Below, in pieces: positions 2,627 to 23,919 of a DNA stretch of 32,519 nucleotides. The translations under genes were made by a program, and so were the position numbers. A model generated the notes under the pieces. It searched no databases, was not told the origin of the DNA, and saw nothing but the letters and a program-made list of their open reading frames with translations. This DNA comes from an uncultured Nitrosomonadales bacterium (lineage in GTDB: Bacteria > Pseudomonadota > Gammaproteobacteria > Burkholderiales > Gallionellaceae). The stretch is from contig CAISHO010000117.1 of assembly GCA_903885165.1 (NCBI GenBank), forward strand, positions 1-32,519, given 5' to 3'. Each line of letters starts with the position of its first letter. Position 1 is the first letter of the stretch.

Positions 2627-3886
2627 ATGCGGATACTAATTGTTGACGACAACCAAACCATTGTCTTATTACTGAGTTCACTACTGAAAAAGTGGGGACA
2701 TGAAGTGGTGGTAGCAGAAAATGGTGAATTGGCTTGGCAATTGCTCCAGCATGACAAGATTCAGTTTGTCATTAGTGACTGGATGATGCCTTGTATGGAC
2801 GGCGCTACGCTATGTCGCAAGATTCGCGGCGCTGGTTTTCAAGATTATGTATATTTCATAATGATCACCGCAATTGGTAAGAAGGGGGGGATCGTCGAAG
2901 GGATGGAAGCGGGTGCAGATGACTATCTGTCCAAACCATTCGATTCTGAAGAGCTCAGGGTTCGTATTAATGCGGGGTGCAGGCTGTTGCATCTAGAAAG
3001 CGAACTTCTCAATCGTAACAAGCACCTAGCTGTCGCTTATAAGTTACTTAGTCGTGATCTTGAAGCTGCTGCCATCGTGCAGCGGAATCTGCTTCCGGAT
3101 CGCGCCGCCACGTTTGGACACGCACAGTTTGACTGGCTATTTGTCCCGACTTCCTTTGTGGCCGGCGATATTCTGGATTATTTCCGGATTATGGATCATC
3201 ATGTGGCTTTCTATCAATTGGATGTGTCAGGGCATGGTGTTCCTTCTGCGATGCTTTCCGTCACTCTATCCAAATTCCTACAACCTGAGCTTGTCGTCGT
3301 CGATCAATCGACGAAATTTAGTGAAAAATCATTGACCGGGCTTTCTTTATTTCCGCCAGAAAAGACGGTTTCTGAATTAAATACTTCATTTCTTTCAGGG
3401 GTTAATGGCGATTTTTATTTTACGATGGTATATGCCATATTGAATTTGAAAACGGGTGAGTTAACATTCTGTCAGGCAGGTCATCCTAACCCCATATTTA
3501 TGCCTGAGGGTGGGGCAGCAAGACTGGTCGGGGGAGGAGGATTTCCTGTGGGATTGCTGCCGGAAGCTGAGTATGAGTCATGTAGTATTGTGATGAGAAA
3601 TAAAGACCGTTTCTTTCTGTATTCTGATGGTATCGTTGATTGCGAATGCGCTGTTGACGGTGAGATTTTTGGTGAAGAAAGACTCATCAAATTTATTGAA
3701 GATTCTCGGTTAAGTCCCGTTACGGATTTGAATGCCGCTCTCAAGTCAGTGCTGATCGCTTGGCGGGGCGGTGAAACGTTTGAAGATGACATCTCGTTTC
3801 TTGCTGTGGAGCTGAACTCAAGAAGAATGCAGCAGGGACGGAGTGAGGTGTCGATGAACTCGGATGATATTGAGCGGAGATGCTAG
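2627..3886 (+). CDS. Response regulator with C-terminal PP2C (SpoIIE/RsbU-type) serine phosphatase
   Basis: The 419-residue protein has two domains. Residues 1-120 form a receiver domain with the acidic pair D7-D8, the phosphoacceptor D51 in VISDWMMPCMDG, T81 and K103 in LSKPF. A helical linker (about 120-150) leads to a PP2C-type phosphatase domain (about 165-395) that keeps its metal-binding acidic residues: D181 (AGDILDYF), D199 (DVSGHG), D334 (YSDGIVD) and D387-D388 (EDDISFLAV). Such proteins dephosphorylate a STAS-domain anti-anti-sigma factor when their receiver is phosphorylated. A STAS protein (6227) and a RsbW-like ATPase (6628) are encoded nearby, which makes a partner-switching role likely. 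No histidine kinase is in the window. The Shine-Dalgarno is weak (TTGAGA upstream). Confidence 0.9.
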   Translation: MRILIVDDNQTIVLLLSSLLKKWGHEVVVAENGELAWQLLQHDKIQFVISDWMMPCMDGATLCRKIRGAGFQDYVYFIMITAIGKKGGIVEGMEAGADDYLSKPFDSEELRVRINAGCRLLHLESELLNRNKHLAVAYKLLSRDLEAAAIVQRNLLPDRAATFGHAQFDWLFVPTSFVAGDILDYFRIMDHHVAFYQLDVSGHGVPSAMLSVTLSKFLQPELVVVDQSTKFSEKSLTGLSLFPPEKTVSELNTSFLSGVNGDFYFTMVYAILNLKTGELTFCQAGHPNPIFMPEGGAARLVGGGGFPVGLLPEAEYESCSIVMRNKDRFFLYSDGIVDCECAVDGEIFGEERLIKFIEDSRLSPVTDLNAALKSVLIAWRGGETFEDDISFLAVELNSRRMQQGRSEVSMNSDDIERRC

Positions 3887-3958: not shown

Positions 3959-4017
3959 GTAGTATCATCTGCAACAAGCTGCTTTGTTTAAAAACAATAT
4001 TTGCGGGGATGATCTTG

Positions 4018-4770
4018 ATGTCTACTAAACACTATGACCCATGGCATGACGTCGAATTGCTCAATGACGTCATGAACAAATTCGAGAGTCGGCAATCAGG
4101 CTTTGCCAGGCTGCAATTTCTAATACGCATGGCTGTGAAGCGCTTCGTTTGGACTGTCACGATAGGATCGACTTATTTTATTAAACGCGTGCTTGATGTG
4201 GTTGTATCATTATTAGCGCTGATCATGCTCTCGCCGCTGTTTTTAATTACTTGGCTGGCAATCAAAGTCGAAGATCCAGGCCCGTCAATCTATATTCAAA
4301 ATCGTATCGGGAAATGGGGAAAAACCTTTGCGATGTACAAATTCCGATCCATGGTGATGAATGCAGATGCTCTTAAGGATCAACTGTTGAAGCAAAATGA
4401 GTCGGAAGCCGGGGTGATTTTCAAAATGAAAAACGATCCTCGTATCACTCGCACCGGAAAAATTATTCGAAAATTGTCTATCGATGAGTTGCCACAACTT
4501 GTCAATGTACTAAAGGGCGATATGTCTTTGGTCGGCCCCAGACCTCCTGTGCAACGTGAAGTTGACGAATACAGCATAGCGCACAGGATGCGTCTCGAAG
4601 TGACGCCAGGTATCACCTGTCTGTGGCAAATCGGTGGGCGATCAGATATCGATTTTGAGGGGCAGGTCAGGCTGGATGTGCAGTACATCCGGGAACGCAG
4701 GTTCCTTAAAGATGTTTTGATACTGCTGAAAACAGTTCCGGCTGTGCTGTTGGGGAAAGGGGCTTACTGA
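4018..4770 (+). CDS. Undecaprenyl-phosphate sugar phosphotransferase (monotopic phosphoglycosyltransferase)
   Basis: This 250-residue protein belongs to the bacterial sugar transferase family (PF02397), which starts polysaccharide repeat units by moving a sugar-1-phosphate from a nucleotide sugar to undecaprenyl phosphate at the inner membrane. The re-entrant membrane helix spans about residues 56-84 after an unusual N-terminal extension of about 55 residues. All key motifs are present: KFRSM (108-112), the catalytic D156-E157 in SIDELPQ, GDMSLVGPRPP (168-177), and the C-terminal TPGITCLWQ and GRSD segments. The start at 4018 is chosen because GCGGGGAT lies just upstream with good spacing; the frame is open further upstream to 3937, but without a better ribosome site. 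Its stop overlaps the next start (TGATG). It is the only one of three PGT-like domains in this locus with the catalytic pair intact. Confidence 0.92.
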   Translation: MSTKHYDPWHDVELLNDVMNKFESRQSGFARLQFLIRMAVKRFVWTVTIGSTYFIKRVLDVVVSLLALIMLSPLFLITWLAIKVEDPGPSIYIQNRIGKWGKTFAMYKFRSMVMNADALKDQLLKQNESEAGVIFKMKNDPRITRTGKIIRKLSIDELPQLVNVLKGDMSLVGPRPPVQREVDEYSIAHRMRLEVTPGITCLWQIGGRSDIDFEGQVRLDVQYIRERRFLKDVLILLKTVPAVLLGKGAY

Positions 4771-6230
4771 TGTCAGAACGAGCTGAGGCAAATGAAACAA
4801 GAATAACGAGAGCACTGTTGCTCGATACGGGTAAGGGGGAGGCGCTTGCACCCTTCCTTGAGAAATGTGCTGCTGGCATGCTGTCGATAGGGACTAAGCC
4901 TGTTGTCCAAATATGGATGGAGGTACTGGCCGATGCTGGTGTAAATGAAGTAATGCTGTTGCTGACTCATGTTCCAGAACAAGTTCGTTCGTTTTTGGGT
5001 TCAGGGGAGCGCTGGGGGATTAAAGTAAGTTTTGCAATTGTACGGGAGGATATTCCACTCGGACAAAAAATCGCTCATGCGAGAGAATTCATTAAAGCCG
5101 GCACGTTCATTGCTGAGCTAAATGTGGTGCCATTGGAGGGATTTATAGCCTGGCTTACACAGGCGGCTCTGTGCGGAAGTGAAACCTTAGCTTGTTTTCC
5201 TGAAATGGAAAAACAGCTTGAGGCATTGATTAAAGATGGTTTTTTAAGCGAGGCAGGTCAATACACTCTCAGCTTGCCAGAGCTTGATACTTTCGGAAAA
5301 AATATCTATCGGATAATTGATGGGCCAGATGAACTTTGGCAAATCAATATGGATATGTTTAGTGCTGAGGTGGTAGATACACATCGCGCTGGATTCGAGA
5401 ACGAGAAGGGCGTATTTATATGCCGAAATTCACGATTTCATCAAACTGTTAAATTGAATTCGCCCTGTATTGTCGGGGAGAACTCGATTTTTAGTGAACG
5501 TATACAGATAGGTCCTAATGCGATTTTAGGTAACAACATGTTTGCAGATGTGGGCTCTTCTATCAGGAATAGCGTTGTTTTTGATCATACCTTTATCGGC
5601 TCATATATGGAACTTGACAGGGTAATTGCATCAGGTCGGGTGTTGTACAGTATGGATAGTAAAATGTATATTCATCTTGATGATCCTCTGCTGGTTGCAG
5701 ACATAGAAAGCGGTGGCGGCAGTCTCTCATCCCTACTTCAGCGACTGGTCGCCGCGCTTATTCTTGTGATCCTGTTCGTTCCTGTGATGGTTCGTGCTTT
5801 GATTTTGAAAGCGACAGGAAAACCTGTCTGGTTGAAAGAAAAGCTGATACTTGAGGTAGGATTATCCTTGGATGGTCAGCGGGAATTCAGGGAACTGACG
5901 GTGACTTCATTAGCGGTTAAAAATCCTTCATGGCGTAAAATTTTTTGGATATGGCAGGTTGTTCTGGGTGCGATTGCGCTGACTGGCATCATGCCGAGAA
6001 TGACGCGTGCAGACAGATTGCCGGACTGGACTTCAGATGTCGTCTGGGTGGCTCCTGGTGTTGTGACGTTAGCGGATGTAACCGGGGTTTCCCGAGCTGG
6101 TTCGGATAGTGAGGATGTGTTGATTGCAGATGCTTATTATCAATCTACTACAAAGAGTGGCTTGGATCTGCAATTACTATGGAGATGGATAGCTTTGTTA
6201 TTTAAGTGCGATGAAAGGGAGGATGTATGA
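4770..6230 (+). CDS. Degenerate nucleotidyltransferase / left-handed beta-helix / sugar-transferase-like fusion protein
   Basis: This 486-residue protein appears to be a fusion of worn-down enzyme domains. Residues 13-125 follow a sugar nucleotidyltransferase (compare TKPVVQIWMEVLADAGVNEV), but the LAAGxGTRxxP nucleotide loop is replaced by LLDTGKGEALAP and the following KP by AG. Residues about 212-285 show hexapeptide-type repeats (SPCIVGENSIF, IQIGPNAILGNN). Residues about 320-480 align to a phosphoglycosyltransferase: a hydrophobic helix (325-345), GKPVWLKEKLI in place of the usual GPVFFxQxRxG, and APGVVTLADVTG in place of PGITGLWQVSG. KFRSM and the catalytic DELPQ motif are missing. It is translationally coupled to the intact PGT before it and to the STAS gene after it. 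A scaffold or regulatory role is an inference; it could still act on an unknown substrate. Confidence 0.8.
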   Translation: MSERAEANETRITRALLLDTGKGEALAPFLEKCAAGMLSIGTKPVVQIWMEVLADAGVNEVMLLLTHVPEQVRSFLGSGERWGIKVSFAIVREDIPLGQKIAHAREFIKAGTFIAELNVVPLEGFIAWLTQAALCGSETLACFPEMEKQLEALIKDGFLSEAGQYTLSLPELDTFGKNIYRIIDGPDELWQINMDMFSAEVVDTHRAGFENEKGVFICRNSRFHQTVKLNSPCIVGENSIFSERIQIGPNAILGNNMFADVGSSIRNSVVFDHTFIGSYMELDRVIASGRVLYSMDSKMYIHLDDPLLVADIESGGGSLSSLLQRLVAALILVILFVPVMVRALILKATGKPVWLKEKLILEVGLSLDGQREFRELTVTSLAVKNPSWRKIFWIWQVVLGAIALTGIMPRMTRADRLPDWTSDVVWVAPGVVTLADVTGVSRAGSDSEDVLIADAYYQSTTKSGLDLQLLWRWIALLFKCDEREDV

Positions 6231-6556
6231 CTGAATATTTCAAACAGGAACAAATTGGTGACACTTTGGTATTGCGTCTGCAAGGACGTATGGATGCACA
6301 AGCCGTTTCGGAAATGAAAGAGGAGTTTAAAAATATTTCAGGGAAATATGTGCTGGCCAATCTGGCTGATGTCAGCTTTCTGGATTCCTCTGCCCTGGGA
6401 CTGATTGTTTCCACCCTGCGCCGTATTCGAGAAAATGATGGTGAGTTAGCCTTGTGCTGCCTTACTCCTCGAGTACGCACCATTTTTGAGCTGACTCGAT
6501 TGCACAAGGTGTTTCATATTTATGCAACTGAAGCACTGGCTTTGGCGGCACATTGA
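6227..6556 (+). CDS. STAS-domain anti-sigma factor antagonist (RsbV/SpoIIAA-like)
   Basis: This 109-residue cytoplasmic protein is a single STAS domain. The hallmark SFLDSSALGLIVSTLRRI (about 50-67) contains the D53-S54-S55 site where family members are phosphorylated by a RsbW-type kinase and dephosphorylated by a PP2C phosphatase. It overlaps the preceding fusion gene by four bases (ATGA) and is followed, after a 71-bp gap, by the RsbW-like gene. With the response regulator-phosphatase at 2627 this completes a partner-switching set. The output is unknown: no sigma factor is in the window, so the target may be an enzyme or another protein of the polysaccharide pathway. Confidence 0.92.
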   Translation: MTEYFKQEQIGDTLVLRLQGRMDAQAVSEMKEEFKNISGKYVLANLADVSFLDSSALGLIVSTLRRIRENDGELALCCLTPRVRTIFELTRLHKVFHIYATEALALAAH

Positions 6557-6627: not shown

Positions 6628-7131
6628 ATGATGTGTTCAAATTCTGAATTATTCGTTATGCCGGAACAGATGCATGCCGCTGATATAGTTGGCAGTGTAC
6701 GCATTCCAGCGACTTTAAGTGCTGTTCGTTTGCTCTGCGATGTAGTCACAGATGCTGCAATGCAGCTATGTGATGATGCTGAATTTTCCGCTCTACTAGA
6801 AATTGCTGCCGCTGAAGCCGCAAATAATATTGTTATTCACGGCTATTGCGATAACCCGGGAGGTTGGATTCATCTTGAAATTAAATCGACCCCCAGTTAT
6901 GTGTGCCTTATCCTGAACGACGGTGCGCCATACTTTGACCCGCTTGCGAATTCCCCAGCGGAAGACACGCCCGTAGCGTGTACTTCAGCTACAGATTCTA
7001 GTATGGGTATGGGTGTCTTTATTTTCAAAGATGCGATGGATTGTATCCGCTACCGGATGCTTGATAAAGGTAATCAATTGCTTATGTATAAGCTCATTCC
7101 CAATAAAACTGTAAAAGAGGTGATGGCATGA
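6628..7131 (+). CDS. RsbW-like anti-sigma factor / serine kinase (HATPase_c domain)
   Basis: This 167-residue protein has a single GHKL-type ATPase domain. The N-box is visible as AAAEAANNIVIHGY (E63, N66, N67), the G1 box as LNDGAPYFDP (D98-G99), and the glycine-rich G2 region as GMGVFIFKDAMD (about 127-138). This is the layout of RsbW/SpoIIAB-type proteins, which phosphorylate a STAS partner on serine and bind either that partner or a target. The stop overlaps the nucleotidyltransferase start (ATGA). The start is uncertain: no Shine-Dalgarno lies close to 6628, ATG codons follow at 6631 and 6658, and the gap from the STAS gene is 71 bp, so its translation may be less efficient than its neighbours'. 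Confidence 0.88.
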   Translation: MMCSNSELFVMPEQMHAADIVGSVRIPATLSAVRLLCDVVTDAAMQLCDDAEFSALLEIAAAEAANNIVIHGYCDNPGGWIHLEIKSTPSYVCLILNDGAPYFDPLANSPAEDTPVACTSATDSSMGMGVFIFKDAMDCIRYRMLDKGNQLLMYKLIPNKTVKEVMA

Positions 7132-8273
7132 AGGCGATGATACTTGCCGCAGGCAAGGGTACCAGGGTGCAACCCATAACCCATGAGATCCCCAAACCAA
7201 TGATCCCTGTGATCAATCAACCCGTGATGGAATTGATTATTCAGCATATGAAGTCACATGACTTTACGGATTTTGTCGTCAATGTCAGTCACCTGGCACA
7301 CCTGATTGAAGATTATTTTCAGGACGGCAGTCGCCTGGGGGTGCAGATGGCATTCTCATGGGAAGGATACTTTAAGGATGATGAGTGGGTTGGTGATGCG
7401 ATTGGTTCTGCTGGTGGCATGAGGTTAATTCAAGATCGTTTCGGATTTTTTGATCAGACTTTTGCAGTGCTTTGTGGCGATGCGGTGATTGATGTCGATT
7501 TTACTCGTGCGCTGGAACTTCACCGTGAAAATGGCGCAATGGCAACTATCATTCTGAAGCGAGTGCCTAAGAGTGAGGTGTCAAGTTATGGTGTCGTGCT
7601 GACAGATGAGGACGGTCGCATTGTTTCATTTCAGGAAAAGCCCACTGCGGAAGAGGCCAAGAGTGACCTCGTTAATACGGGGATTTACCTGTTTGAACCT
7701 GAAATTTTCAACTTTATACCGAAGGACTGCATTTACGATATCGGTTCTGACCTGTTCCCTGCATTAGTTGCCGCCGCCGTGCCATTTTATGGCGTTGAGT
7801 TGCCATTTCAGTGGATCGATATCGGTAAAACGCCAGACTTGTGGAACGCCACCAGTATGGCATTGCAGGGTCAAATACATGGATTTTCTATGCCGGGTAC
7901 TGAATTAAGTCCCGGTATATGGGTGGGTACTAATACGCGTATCGATGAAAGAGCAATTTTGACCGCCCCGCTTTATATAGGCGGCTCTACGGTTATTGAA
8001 GCAGGGGCGGTTCTGCGTGGCCCCTGTGTCATACAATCAGGAAGTATGATTGAGTCCGGTGCTGTCATTGAAAAAAGTCTGATATGGCATCACACCAGAA
8101 TTTCCGGCATTGCGAATATTTCGGAAAAAATTATTTTTGGAAATCACTGCATAGACTTTGATGGTGATGCTGTTAATCTTGCCGCAGGAGGCTTTGATTG
8201 GCTTATCGCGGATCGACGCAGCATTCGTACGGACAATCCCTTAGATATTGATGGAATTATGCCTAGGAAATGA
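7128..8273 (+). CDS. Sugar-1-phosphate nucleotidyltransferase with left-handed beta-helix domain
   Basis: This 381-residue protein has an intact N-terminal nucleotidyltransferase domain (1-240): LAAGKGTRVQPIT at residues 6-18 followed by PKPM, the acidic LCGDAVID segment (about 115-122) and FQEKP (about 168-172). A C-terminal hexapeptide left-handed helix follows (about 255-345; GIWVGTNTRIDERAIL, PLYIGGSTVIEAGAVL). The architecture matches mannose-1-phosphate guanylyltransferase-like and glucose-1-phosphate thymidylyl/uridylyltransferase-like proteins, which make the activated sugar for polysaccharide synthesis. The exact nucleotide and sugar cannot be set from sequence alone. It contrasts with the degenerate version at 4770. 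It overlaps its neighbours on both sides and is part of the same operon. Confidence 0.88.
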   Translation: MKAMILAAGKGTRVQPITHEIPKPMIPVINQPVMELIIQHMKSHDFTDFVVNVSHLAHLIEDYFQDGSRLGVQMAFSWEGYFKDDEWVGDAIGSAGGMRLIQDRFGFFDQTFAVLCGDAVIDVDFTRALELHRENGAMATIILKRVPKSEVSSYGVVLTDEDGRIVSFQEKPTAEEAKSDLVNTGIYLFEPEIFNFIPKDCIYDIGSDLFPALVAAAVPFYGVELPFQWIDIGKTPDLWNATSMALQGQIHGFSMPGTELSPGIWVGTNTRIDERAILTAPLYIGGSTVIEAGAVLRGPCVIQSGSMIESGAVIEKSLIWHHTRISGIANISEKIIFGNHCIDFDGDAVNLAAGGFDWLIADRRSIRTDNPLDIDGIMPRK

Positions 8274-20123: not shown

Positions 20124-22466
20124 ATGGGATCTTTGAGAAAGGTAGTGCAGGTGCTGAATTGTCCATTGGGATGTAAAAATTCATTAGTCATGCTGGTTGT
20201 GCTCAGCATCCTACACATAGGATTTTCTTTCGGTGAAGAATTGGAAAGCAGGGTTGAGCTGAGTTCTTCTATAAGTCGAAAACCTGTCAATAACAGCACA
20301 GACTTTAATTGCCGCTTACCGACGCCCATTGATGCCGGCGAATTCAAATCGCCAGTGCTGGGGATGGAGGTTGAGTCGAGCCGGGCCATCCAAGTGTATT
20401 TTTCTGCACTTGAAATTCAACCACATCTCTCCAGTCAGCTTAAGTATAGACTGACAAGCCGCACGGATAGCCGTTTCGTTTCACCGGTGATGCCAATTAA
20501 GACAGGCTATGACCGGCAAATAGTTCGTTTTGACGGAAATAACCAGCCTGTAGCTGAGACACGTTTACATTTATTGTTCTCGGTATCGATGAAGGAAGGT
20601 GAGCGCTATACCTTACAGTCCATCGATAGCGAATCAGCGGCTAAGTCATTGATCACTTTTAGCTACAAAGAATGTCGTGTTACCACTTCCTTGCAGGTTA
20701 GTCAGGCTGGGTACATACCTATAGCGCCTAAATTTGCTTATGCGGGTAACTGGTTAGGCAGTGCCGGGGCGATGCCGATTGATAATACCGTATTTTCAAT
20801 TTTGGATGCCGGGTCAGGGAGAGTCGTCAGTACCGGTTCGATGGTGTTACGTTCTGCCGCTGATCAGTGGAGCGGCAACGACGTTTATGAAGCAAGGCTC
20901 CCAGCTTTGCATCCCGGAAAATATCGTATGTATGTGGCCGGATTGGGGGTGTCTTATGTTTTCTCTATTGACCCGGATATGGCTGAAAAAATTTATCGCA
21001 AAGTCGCGCGTGTGCTCTATCACAGACGTAATTCCACACCCATTATAGCTCCCTGGGCAGAACCGGGCTTCGAGCGTCCAATGGGTGGGGTAAAAAAGGT
21101 CTACGATGGCTACCTCCATCCTGCGTTAAGTTCCCCAGATTATCTGTTTAACCAGGGCGAAATTGCCTATCGTTATCGCCCTGTCAGCAAGGGATGGTTT
21201 GATGCCGGTGACTATGGACAATATGTACCTAATATGGCTATGGTCTATTGGGCAACTAGCCTAGCGCTGGATTTATCCCCTGGCGGATTTGCAGATCGTG
21301 AATTGAATATTCCTGAAAGCGGGAACTCTATCCCTGACATTATTGATGAATTAGGCTGGGGAATGGACTGGGCCTTATCTATGCAAGATGCCGACGGAGG
21401 TGTTTATTCTCGGCTTGCAAGTGAAACGTGGGATGAAACACTACCGCATCTTGTTGGGAAAAAACGTCTGATTTACGAGAAAACAACGCATGCAACCGCA
21501 AGTTTTGCTGCCATGGCCGCTATCTATGCGCGCCTCATAAAACCGTATGATCCAGTGCGCGCGACGAGGGCTATTGCTGCATCTGAACATGCTTGGCTGT
21601 TTTTGAATACCCATGAACAATGGCCTGCCGAAGGACATAAATACAAAAATCCACCTGGAACACACGCAGGTGAATATGCCGATGCATCGGCCGCTGATAA
21701 TCTTCTTTGGGCGGCAGCGGAGCTTTACAGGACGACACGAAATACTCGCTATATGGATTACTTTCAGTTGAAACTGTCTACAGTTCCAGTGGATCCGAGC
21801 AATCTTCCCAAATTCGACCGGGTAGAAATGGCCGCCTTATGGGCCATTGCCATGGCAACACCGGTTTCTGATCAGTATGGTAAAAGAGCTCGTAAAAGCC
21901 TTATCGAGGGTGCGAGCTGGCGCCTGAAGCAAAGCAGCTTGCATCCCTATCGTGCGCCGCTACACTCATTTATCGGATTCGCAGGCTGGGGTGCTGTGGG
22001 GCAGTCATCGCGCGCGGTATTGCCTTTGCTTCAGGGGTATGCTCTGACTAAAAATCCAGACTATCTACAGGCCGCCTACGCCTCTGTCTATGCGCAACTG
22101 GGTAACAATGCACAATCCCTGTGCTATATCACGGGGTTGGGTAGCCATTCACCGGGTGATCCTTTGTTTAAGATTTCACAGTATGATGCCGAGATTTTAC
22201 CCTTGCCAGGCTTACCAATTAACGGCCCGCATTTTCATCTGCCGGGGGCATTGTTAGCTCATCGACAGGTGAATGACGCCTACTTTCCGCCAGAACAGCC
22301 TGCACTTGCAAATGACTTTGCCAATGCTTATCCTGTTTTGCGACGTTATACAGATTCACATTTACTGCCGCCGATGAGTGAGCCTACTGTGGCCGAAGAG
22401 GCTGAAGTGGCGATGGCTTTTGCACTAATCAGTCGGGCTGCGCAGAACCTAATTCAATTTTATTGA
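20124..22466 (+). CDS. Secreted glycoside hydrolase family 9 (endoglucanase-like)
   Basis: This 780-residue protein has an N-terminal signal-like hydrophobic segment (about 20-37), an unassigned beta-rich region (about 40-185), a CelD-type N-terminal immunoglobulin-like domain (about 187-283, beginning SLQVSQAGYIP), and a GH9 catalytic domain (about 288-775). The catalytic aspartates are in GWFDAGDYGQY (D360, D363) and the likely acid glutamate is in the C-terminal VAEEAEVAMAFAL. The SYVTGFG-like motif reads CYITGLGSHSPGD, but the usual PHHR that follows is replaced by PLFK, so substrate binding differs from cellulases. A role in cutting or releasing the EPS of this locus is likely. No strong Shine-Dalgarno is seen at 20124. 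The gene converges with the next, only 16 bp apart. Confidence 0.88.
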   Translation: MGSLRKVVQVLNCPLGCKNSLVMLVVLSILHIGFSFGEELESRVELSSSISRKPVNNSTDFNCRLPTPIDAGEFKSPVLGMEVESSRAIQVYFSALEIQPHLSSQLKYRLTSRTDSRFVSPVMPIKTGYDRQIVRFDGNNQPVAETRLHLLFSVSMKEGERYTLQSIDSESAAKSLITFSYKECRVTTSLQVSQAGYIPIAPKFAYAGNWLGSAGAMPIDNTVFSILDAGSGRVVSTGSMVLRSAADQWSGNDVYEARLPALHPGKYRMYVAGLGVSYVFSIDPDMAEKIYRKVARVLYHRRNSTPIIAPWAEPGFERPMGGVKKVYDGYLHPALSSPDYLFNQGEIAYRYRPVSKGWFDAGDYGQYVPNMAMVYWATSLALDLSPGGFADRELNIPESGNSIPDIIDELGWGMDWALSMQDADGGVYSRLASETWDETLPHLVGKKRLIYEKTTHATASFAAMAAIYARLIKPYDPVRATRAIAASEHAWLFLNTHEQWPAEGHKYKNPPGTHAGEYADASAADNLLWAAAELYRTTRNTRYMDYFQLKLSTVPVDPSNLPKFDRVEMAALWAIAMATPVSDQYGKRARKSLIEGASWRLKQSSLHPYRAPLHSFIGFAGWGAVGQSSRAVLPLLQGYALTKNPDYLQAAYASVYAQLGNNAQSLCYITGLGSHSPGDPLFKISQYDAEILPLPGLPINGPHFHLPGALLAHRQVNDAYFPPEQPALANDFANAYPVLRRYTDSHLLPPMSEPTVAEEAEVAMAFALISRAAQNLIQFY

Positions 22467-22482
22467 AATTATGGAAGGAAGA

Positions 22483-23919
22483 TTACTGGTGATTTCCTGC
22501 TTTCATACGCTTTTGCCAGCGCATGACCCGCCACAGAAACAGCGGATTACCTATGATGTATCGACGCCACATCCGGCCGGGTTCTTGTAATAACCGGTAT
22601 ACCCATTCCACACCTATCTCGCGCATCCAGCGCGGGGCGCGTTTTGTTTGTCCTGACATAAAGTCAAATAACCCGCCGACGCCTAGGGCGATACCCACAC
22701 CCAATGCATTCAAGTTGCTATGTATCCATAATTCTTGACGAGGTGCGCCTAAAGCCACTAAAAGAATGCGTGCACCGGACTGCTTTATTGTATTGATGAT
22801 ATTCCCTTCTTCTTCAGGTTTAAAGTAACCGTGCTGGAAGCCAGCTATCACTAATGCGGGATATTTTGCGTGCAATACTTCAACCATCGCATCCACAATG
22901 CCAGGCTTGCCGCCCAGAAAATAGATTGGAAGGTGGTCCTGCATCGCGCGTTCACAAAGGTAAGGGAATAAATCTGTTCCGTTTACATTATCATCCATGC
23001 TGGTATTCATAAGCTTGCAAGCGATGTGAATACCAATACCATCAGCCAGCACAAAATCCAGTTTTTGCAGCAGGGCTTTGTATTCATTATTTGTACAGGC
23101 AATGTTCATGCAGTCTGGATTCACGAAGGCAAGTTGAACAGGCGTGGTCTGTAGTGCATCATGTGCGATTTTGTTGATCACCTCCGACATTTTCATGTTG
23201 CGGATTGTAATATCCAGCATGTTGATTTCTGGGGTTGGTATTGGCTTTTCGCCGCTTGTGGGCAGGATCAGCGCACTTCGGAGCAGTACACCCAAATCGC
23301 CTTTGGCACTTCTCTGATGGATATATTCCCTGTCGGCAGTCATCTCAGCCTCATGGGCGATATTGACTGCCTTCCGCAATAAATAGGGATTTGTGAGTCC
23401 TGGGCGAGTTGTCTGGCGCACATATTCAGGTATCTCTCTTGATGGATAAGGAACAGGACTGGGGCCAACAAAAGAAAGGTCCCCCTTAAGAATATTTATG
23501 AGTACGGGAAGTTTGTGCAATGAGTAACGTTTTATAAATTTTCGGTCAGGAGTGGCATCGCCGGCTTTTGGAAGTATTTCATCTGCTACAGGTAAGTAGA
23601 GCATCCTAAAGGGCGTGCCATATTTTCCGTAAAAATATCGCGGGCCGGAAGCGTTCCGAGCTCGTGGCAGTGTAATAAAGAGCAAGAATATGAAGATGGG
23701 GGAAAGGAGTGCGATAAATAAAATCGCAAGAAGCATATCCATCAGCCGTTGAGCCCGCAGCGAAAAGGCAAGCGCTGTGCGCCCGATAAACCGCCGTAAC
23801 ATTTTTGACTGCCGGTTGATGTTCTTTTTTAAAGGGGATAACTGAATTTCGTATTTTTCGATGGCTGTAGACGATTCGGATGGATCGATCTTGCCAGTTG
23901 GACTTTGTTCTGATTTCAT
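22483..23919 (-). CDS. Fusion of a degenerate sugar-transferase domain and a WecG/TagA/CpsF glycosyltransferase (GT26)
   Basis: This 478-residue protein is the only EPS gene on the minus strand. Residues about 55-221 resemble a phosphoglycosyltransferase: a membrane helix (59-84), ILKGDLSFVGPSPVP (143-157) and TRPGLTNPYL. The catalytic DELPQ is replaced by SLHKLPV (134-140) and KFRSM by FRMLYL, so phosphosugar transfer by this domain is doubtful. Residues about 233-478 are a typical GT26 domain: LAFVNPDCMNIA, LADGIGIHIA (D293), NGTDLFPYLCERA, VALGAPRQELWIHSN and the GIALGVGGLFDFMSG segment. GT26 enzymes add the second sugar to undecaprenyl-linked intermediates; the dead domain may serve as a membrane anchor. 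The gene has its own strong promoter (24115-24144) and a leader of about 190 nt. Confidence 0.88.
   Translation of the reverse strand: MKSEQSPTGKIDPSESSTAIEKYEIQLSPLKKNINRQSKMLRRFIGRTALAFSLRAQRLMDMLLAILFIALLSPIFIFLLFITLPRARNASGPRYFYGKYGTPFRMLYLPVADEILPKAGDATPDRKFIKRYSLHKLPVLINILKGDLSFVGPSPVPYPSREIPEYVRQTTRPGLTNPYLLRKAVNIAHEAEMTADREYIHQRSAKGDLGVLLRSALILPTSGEKPIPTPEINMLDITIRNMKMSEVINKIAHDALQTTPVQLAFVNPDCMNIACTNNEYKALLQKLDFVLADGIGIHIACKLMNTSMDDNVNGTDLFPYLCERAMQDHLPIYFLGGKPGIVDAMVEVLHAKYPALVIAGFQHGYFKPEEEGNIINTIKQSGARILLVALGAPRQELWIHSNLNALGVGIALGVGGLFDFMSGQTKRAPRWMREIGVEWVYRLLQEPGRMWRRYIIGNPLFLWRVMRWQKRMKAGNHQ

Follow-up and report, generated by a model that had tools for sequence, protein, structure and literature searches.

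The window, by which we mean the whole 32,519-nucleotide stretch of DNA that was analysed, carries on its forward strand a phosphoglycosyltransferase (PGT) gene followed directly by the gene of a three-part protein that resembles two enzyme families and retains the active site of neither. This pseudoenzyme and its neighbours, all on the forward strand, are as follows.

2627–3886, +: RsbU-like response regulator with a PP2C (SpoIIE) phosphatase domain (PF00072, E 1.3e-26; PF07228, E 1.3e-37)
4018–4770, +: short monotopic PGT, active-looking by Pfam and motifs (KFRSM and DELPQ present), no PF13727
4770–6230, +: three-part pseudoenzyme, 486 residues, ATG start (Pfam, fold model and profile comparison)
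Pseudoenzyme residues ~14–200: dead nucleotidyltransferase-like domain
Pseudoenzyme residues ~215–305: left-handed beta-helix
Pseudoenzyme residues ~315–480: hydrophobic segment and dead PGT-like domain
6227–6556, +: STAS domain-only protein (PF01740, E 4e-21), its start overlapping the pseudoenzyme stop
6628–7131, +: RsbW-like HATPase_c_2 protein, a serine kinase by homology (PF13581, E 6.5e-18)
7128–8273, +: active-looking nucleotidyltransferase with a beta-helix, LAAGKGTR and PKP kept (PF00483, E 5.2e-51)

The PGT frame can be read from 3937, a mechanical start, and its probable start codon is the ATG at 4018 or that at 4009. Its TGA stop (4768–4770) has one base in common with the pseudoenzyme ATG (4770), and the pseudoenzyme stop (6228–6230) is overlapped by the STAS ATG at 6227; the intact frame coupled to its neighbours, described in an earlier note on this DNA, is thus seen on both sides of the gene. 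The three components of a partner switch, namely a STAS protein, a kinase and a phosphatase, occur together in the window (6227, 6628 and 2627).

Results

Distribution of the family

In one search 59 of 61 genomes matched the pseudoenzyme, nearly all of them, besides the window's own, through its first ~135 residues, and these matches were set aside on their range as presumably ordinary nucleotidyltransferases. When residues 301–486 were used as the query, the only match among 158 genomes of the window's family was the window's own; residues 201–486 matched in four of 398 genomes of its phylum, these being the window, one zetaproteobacterium and two Shewanella. A scan of a public genome collection gave seven loci, in Zetaproteobacteria J005, Desulfobacter vibrioformis, Victivallis vadensis, three Shewanella and L040, the last of which was left out of the member counts.

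Searches with a profile, A2, covered four genome groups, the class, order or phylum of each being inferred from its named centre genome. Near-full-length matches were obtained in 8 of 247 genomes of the Shewanella order (65 above threshold, the rest partial) and in 1 of 78 genomes of the J005 class (10 above threshold). Members were found in 6 of 247 genomes of the Desulfobacter phylum, where 13 lay above threshold and 7 were dropped as other enzymes; two of these six are partial matches but have a full-length open frame. The Victivallis phylum gave 35 of 194 genomes above threshold, some partial and one, G1089, with internal stops; the G1089 match is excluded from the 56 members counted below. 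Those 56 comprise 39 distinct members of a first set (40 alignment rows, one a duplicate) and 17 further, more diverged members; the genomes are sampled and related, several being Shewanella, so the counts are not independent.

Seven candidates, L088–L094, were rejected as large proteins with open frames of 841–874 residues; L088, L089, L091 and L092 have intact motifs, and for L090, L093 and L094 the grounds were protein size and the range of the match only. L065 duplicates L042 and was removed. None of 18 matching plasmid records and neither of two matching phage records covers 80% of the query, and a search of a viral fold library gave no useful match for the pseudoenzyme.

The closest relative of the window protein, at 39% identity, is that of J005, which belongs to another class than the window; Shewanella, according to its kinship labels, sits in the window's own class. 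Horizontal transfer of the pseudoenzyme gene is likely.

Architecture of the pseudoenzyme

The earlier note had read the protein as a fusion of a nucleotidyltransferase, a beta-helix and a PGT, and this reading of the 486-residue frame is borne out by Pfam, by fold matches and by profile comparison. NTP_transferase (PF00483) matches residues 15–112 above its cut-off (E 7.9e-7), LbH_EIF2B matches residues 215–289 below its cut-off (E 7.9e-4) and Bac_transf (PF02397) matches residues 394–477 (E 3.1e-6, 27.3 bits against a cut-off of 27). The latter two are weak in the window protein taken by itself, and are firm because they recur family-wide: at E 0.01, LbH_EIF2B is found in 39 of the 39 distinct first-set members, NTP_transferase in 26 and Bac_transf in 23.

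Fold models were built, from seven sequences each, for the window protein (mean pLDDT 64.5, the C-terminal part being weak, with residues 406–465 below 50) and for a Desulfobacter member, whose model was poor (pLDDT 47.9) and left unused. The structural matches returned by Foldseek for the window model are nucleotidyltransferase–LbH proteins, namely tlr0611 (8x7s), GMPPA/GMPPB (7d72–7d74) and VTC1–KJC2 (8yre), with E values from 1e-9 to 2e-7 and modest TM-scores of 0.33–0.44 over the query; a PGT structure is absent from the best 50 matches. Structure prediction, which the earlier note had proposed as a check, therefore agrees with the nucleotidyltransferase and beta-helix folds and does not recover the PGT fold among these 50, and since the Foldseek matches listed back the first two parts only, the PGT-like third part rests on sequence profiles. 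In a profile–profile comparison the C-terminal part (40 rows) matched 26 active PGTs at 99.4% over 152 columns spanning 22–214 of 217, and four control comparisons gave 0.0–2.1%.

By profile alignment the membrane segment is missing in L157, L158, L169 and L171 and the PGT-like part in L165–L167, so neither is essential everywhere; that these members retain the beta-helix suggests that it is the functional core. Eight pseudoenzymes of the Victivallis phylum (L159, L160, L161, L163, L168, L170, L172 and L174) are 409 residues long with a very uniform C-terminus, and no STAS gene was found in the stretch read around them. In L162:3890-5059, on the reverse strand, the last 50–60 residues look out of family, perhaps through an assembly frame change or true decay.

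Loss of both active sites

In the window protein LDTGKGEA stands in place of LAAGxGTR and AAG in place of PKP; KFRSM and DELPQ are absent, with RK in place of DE. The loss is common to its relatives. Aligned against active enzymes, none of the 40 rows has the catalytic Lys of the nucleotidyltransferases, and the Arg of GxGTR is present in a single row, a Desulfobacter protein that is without the Lys; Lys and Arg occur together in none of the 56 distinct members, window included. On the PGT side, the Glu of the Asp–Glu pair is present in 0 of 40 rows (39 distinct), its position being taken by Arg or Lys in 30, and by alignment 15 rows have Asp at the Asp position of the dyad. The Ser of KFRSM is likewise missing from all 40 rows, and what separates KFRSM from DELPQ in active PGTs is largely deleted. 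The Gly of GPRP is retained in all 40 rows and the membrane-helix Pro in 23. For the 17 further members the PGT motifs were covered by word search only, which gave one DELPE (L158), lying by eye away from the dyad position.

The protein thus resembles PF00483 in sequence and fold and lacks the catalytic GxGTR and PKP Lys of that family; it is homologous to the catalytic domain of PF02397 and lacks the Asp–Glu dyad and KFRSM. Nor is it a bifunctional PGT fusion (Bi-PGT), in which a PGT catalytic core is joined to another functional domain: its PGT core is dead and the active PGT is a separate gene. Local decay is ruled out because the catalytic Lys is missing in 56 of 56 members from three phyla and the PGT Glu in 40 of 40 rows. 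The earlier note had inferred that both active sites are lost and that the protein is probably kept for a non-catalytic job, and both statements are supported, the second because the loss is common to relatives; orthologues of the same architecture with intact catalytic motifs, which it had named as contrary evidence, were sought among the 56 members and none was found.

Selection on the pseudoenzyme is purifying, with dN/dS around 0.1 in Shewanella. In three Shewanella pairs it is 0.09–0.12 for the whole protein and at most 0.23 in each of the three parts; the PGT gave 0.07 in one pair, and the pseudoenzyme evolves faster than its PGT. Five of six pairs of the 409-residue members gave 0.04–0.08, at synonymous sites near saturation. 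Two explanations may be weighed here. A decaying leftover carried along by its operon would account for the loss of both active sites and for the faster change, but the gene is open in the 56 counted members of three phyla, has a dN/dS of about 0.1 where measured and stays beside its PGT; on conservation and dN/dS we reject operon debris as scarcely credible. The strong purifying selection could instead reflect an unrecognised catalytic activity, exerted through new active-site residues or the beta-helix, and it may be noted that 35 of the 39 members of the first set and 12 of the 17 of the second have Lys or Arg at the second KP position. However, the protein has lost the catalytic residues of both families along with an entire loop, and some members do without one or other of its parts; we consider such an activity very improbable.

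The pseudoenzyme and its cognate PGT

Of 27 mapped loci, 18 have an active PGT immediately upstream of the pseudoenzyme and 7 have it one STAS-containing gene away; in all of 17 further loci it is immediately upstream, which brings the total to 42 of 44. The exceptions are L117, where ~1.1 kb separates the two genes, and L119:6267-7658, a third G869 pseudoenzyme copy that follows a WecG protein and is without the expected active PGT because the PGT part of that protein has no DELPQ. Within the Victivallis phylum a PGT of the same clade is present in 34 of 35 genomes with the pseudoenzyme, G1089 having none at threshold. In G1142 the PGT lies 29 kb from the pseudoenzyme. A further 19 genomes of this phylum have the PGT with the pseudoenzyme below threshold, and a broader profile locates it directly downstream in 17; the two without it (L164 and L173) have large PGTs of 469 and 481 residues. 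In the Desulfobacter phylum, of 29 PGT matches the seven near a pseudoenzyme score highest (at least 226 bits; next 222), and the other 22 are open frames of ~340–570 residues, beside which the absence of a pseudoenzyme is that given by the A2 search of the phylum. The tie to the real PGT, which the earlier note had suggested the protein might tether, is therefore strong in terms of both adjacency (42 of 44 loci) and co-occurrence (34 of 35 genomes).

PGTs were taken as cognate by locus and by scoring above 200 bits against the window PGT, which those of 26 of 27 loci do; they group in a single clade with support 98/98, apart from 20 of the 47 other PGTs. Their catalytic Lys, Arg, Asp and Glu are invariant in 42 of 42. 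PF13727, the DUF of large PGTs, is found in none of these 42 and in 15 of 20 other PGTs encoded by these genomes; five of the 20 controls thus have no match either, and two of the 20 are only ~200 residues long. Trees of pseudoenzyme and PGT agree with r 0.52 over 25 pairs (permuted maximum 0.24), and both contain the same cross-phylum groups, one of G974 with three Victivallis-phylum genomes and one of G941 with Shewanella and its relative G647. Since the trees agree beyond chance and have these groups in common, the pair seems to travel as a unit.

Linkage to partner-switch genes

The earlier note had suggested a search for this architecture beside STAS and RsbW genes, and such an association was readily found. 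At least 20 of 30 genomes have a STAS gene within 1.6 kb of the pseudoenzyme (expected 0.2) and at least 27 of 30 within 10 kb (expected 0.8), distances being taken from match ends and the counts limited by contig ends; among the matches listed, a STAS gene lies within 10 kb of none of the 47 other PGTs of these genomes, where control PGTs near contig ends could miss one. These controls exclude the G1142 PGT and the degenerate PGT next to the second C71 copy of G869. The exceptions to 10 kb, again among the matches listed, are G729 (11.9 kb), G941 (20.6 kb) and G1093 (none near).

This linkage is not general to the family. Of the 17 more diverged members, STAS was found near 3, and none was found in the stretch read for 14. 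As the 17 were chosen for falling below the first threshold, the two counts cannot be pooled as a random sample, but the 14 do indicate that the switch is not essential to the family. Thus the link to a partner switch, of which the earlier note had made the pseudoenzyme a possible target, holds as gene linkage in most genomes of the first set and, within the stretch read, is not seen in most of the diverged members.

Fusions of a WecG glycosyltransferase to STAS also occur (L037:8421-10001 and L116:7445-8998; two stretches in Desulfobacter vibrioformis and one in G975), which suggests that STAS is able to act directly on biosynthetic machinery. At L122:10800-12473 a response regulator, a PP2C phosphatase and an RsbW-like kinase are joined in one protein, a SypE-like set, adjoining PGT, STAS and pseudoenzyme genes.

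Other neighbours

Pfam was applied to 100 neighbouring proteins drawn from 177, mostly within two genes of the pseudoenzyme and a few, including the window nucleotidyltransferase, three genes away. The matches include Bac_transf in 24, STAS in 15, HATPase_c_2 in 12, SpoIIE in 11, WecG in 10, Hpt in 5 and NTP_transferase in 2; sigma factor families are absent from the best 25 of the 66 Pfam families in these proteins. One more nucleotidyltransferase lies ~4 kb away at L117.

Tethering of the real nucleotidyltransferase, which the earlier note had also proposed, is therefore unlikely as a general role, since such an enzyme is rarely encoded beside the pseudoenzyme. The same neighbourhoods bear on the idea that the protein is a regulatory subunit of the 7128 nucleotidyltransferase, similar to GMPPA or KJC, which would bind through the beta-helix, sense the nucleotide-sugar product and set activity. 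The best structural matches are of this kind, the candidate partner lies 0.9 kb downstream, and there is a precedent in GMPPA, a paralogue reported to have no catalytic activity, to bind GDP-mannose and to regulate GMPPB (PMC11228364). Against this, most nucleotidyltransferase active-site motifs are gone, and the constant neighbour is the PGT, a nucleotidyltransferase being near few relatives by gene neighbourhood, a measure under which a partner could be encoded elsewhere; we regard this relationship as distinctly unlikely. Sensing of a nucleotide sugar is possible, though the motifs aligned to the active site and the base-binding loop are largely lost.

At 22483–23919 on its reverse strand the window encodes a WecG-type glycosyltransferase whose N-terminus carries a second PGT-like domain (Bac_transf, E 9e-19) that looks dead, DE being replaced by HK, and a similar layout is seen by eye in Shewanella L041 and L042, not reported by Pfam for L041. 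The window's polysaccharide cluster also contains a glycosyl hydrolase family 9 gene (20124–22466), near Poly_export and chain-length-type genes. Dead PGT domains fused to WecG, together with the presence of WecG in 10 of the 100 neighbours, could be taken to mean that the pseudoenzyme is mainly a scaffold, which would line up nucleotidyltransferase, PGT and WecG glycosyltransferase on the membrane and have no regulatory effect on the PGT. Regulation is favoured instead by the linked switch genes and by the absence of the DUF, and a purely structural role seems to us unlikely.

Discussion

KJC is a non-catalytic partner of GDP-mannose pyrophosphorylase. The pseudoenzyme is comparable to KJC and GMPPA, which are among its top structural matches, in having a nucleotidyltransferase–LbH fold that is predicted to be non-catalytic and to act on a partner; it differs in that its partner, by gene linkage, is a PGT, in the loss of its motifs and in the dead PGT domain fused to it. 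GMPPA, furthermore, is a paralogue of its own partner, unlike the pseudoenzyme.

In its catalytic domain the neighbouring PGT most resembles the large monotopic PGTs of the WbaP type (TIGR03025, 285 bits; TIGR03022, 268 bits; both below cut-off). In WbaP most contacts of the dimer are reported to lie in the DUF, which is also reported to sense uridine nucleotides; large PGTs have a four-helix bundle in addition (PMC10942596). A regulatory module beside the catalytic domain would be common to both arrangements, whereas here the DUF is missing from all cognate PGTs and an unrelated fold in a separate protein would replace it. In Myxococcus, the response regulator EpsW is described as activating the PGT EpsZ, with evidence for direct interaction, and the DUF of EpsZ as being without a hairpin (PMC12802240). 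As proposed here, the initiating PGT there has a second protein acting on it and misses a feature of the DUF, but EpsW is a single-domain response regulator and EpsZ keeps its DUF. The SypA/SypE system of Vibrio fischeri also places a STAS protein, a kinase and a PP2C phosphatase in a polysaccharide locus, with L122 providing an all-in-one regulator, phosphatase and kinase; for its STAS protein, SypA, the mode of action or target is given as unknown in reports of 2015 and 2021 (PMC4517449, PMC8256260). Neither this fusion nor the pairing of a PGT with a dead nucleotidyltransferase came up in the titles and abstract openings of the open-access papers searched.

We consider that the pseudoenzyme is probably a non-catalytic partner subunit, which would do in trans for the short PGT what the built-in domain of large PGTs does for them. 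The replacement of the DUF module in trans is the simplest reading of the sequences, in that the cognate PGTs are without the module and have a dedicated pseudoenzyme instead. The short PGT, which has neither the N-terminal membrane bundle nor the DUF, would be supplied with such a module by the pseudoenzyme; the hydrophobic segment and dead PGT domain would place the latter on the membrane beside the PGT, the beta-helix may serve as a scaffold and the dead nucleotidyltransferase domain as the face for regulation or docking. In loci that have STAS, RsbW and PP2C genes, such as the window, the STAS protein would probably act on the PGT complex, turning exopolysaccharide priming on and off post-translationally. 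That the two proteins bind, that binding alters activity, what each part does and which target STAS has are all inferences on our part. The STAS/RsbW/PP2C switch may gate the pseudoenzyme in many lineages, the window included, and the STAS protein is a likely input in the window. It is conceivable, though we would put it forward only tentatively, that PGT and pseudoenzyme together constitute a two-protein priming enzyme set directly by the STAS partner switch, with neither a sigma factor nor a transcription step.

Priming by a PGT, which loads the first sugar onto the lipid carrier, is the first committed step in the synthesis of numerous bacterial surface polymers, and the ways in which cells switch it are still largely an open question. 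If our reading is correct, PGT regulators would gain a new class in this pseudoenzyme family, which is found with DUF-less PGTs in three phyla, and the STAS genes linked to it make it a concrete candidate for what partner switches act on in polysaccharide loci. Were STAS to set the PGT–pseudoenzyme pair directly, partner switching in such loci would have a direct enzymatic output and, if so, the pair would offer a model for STAS proteins with unknown targets, such as SypA.
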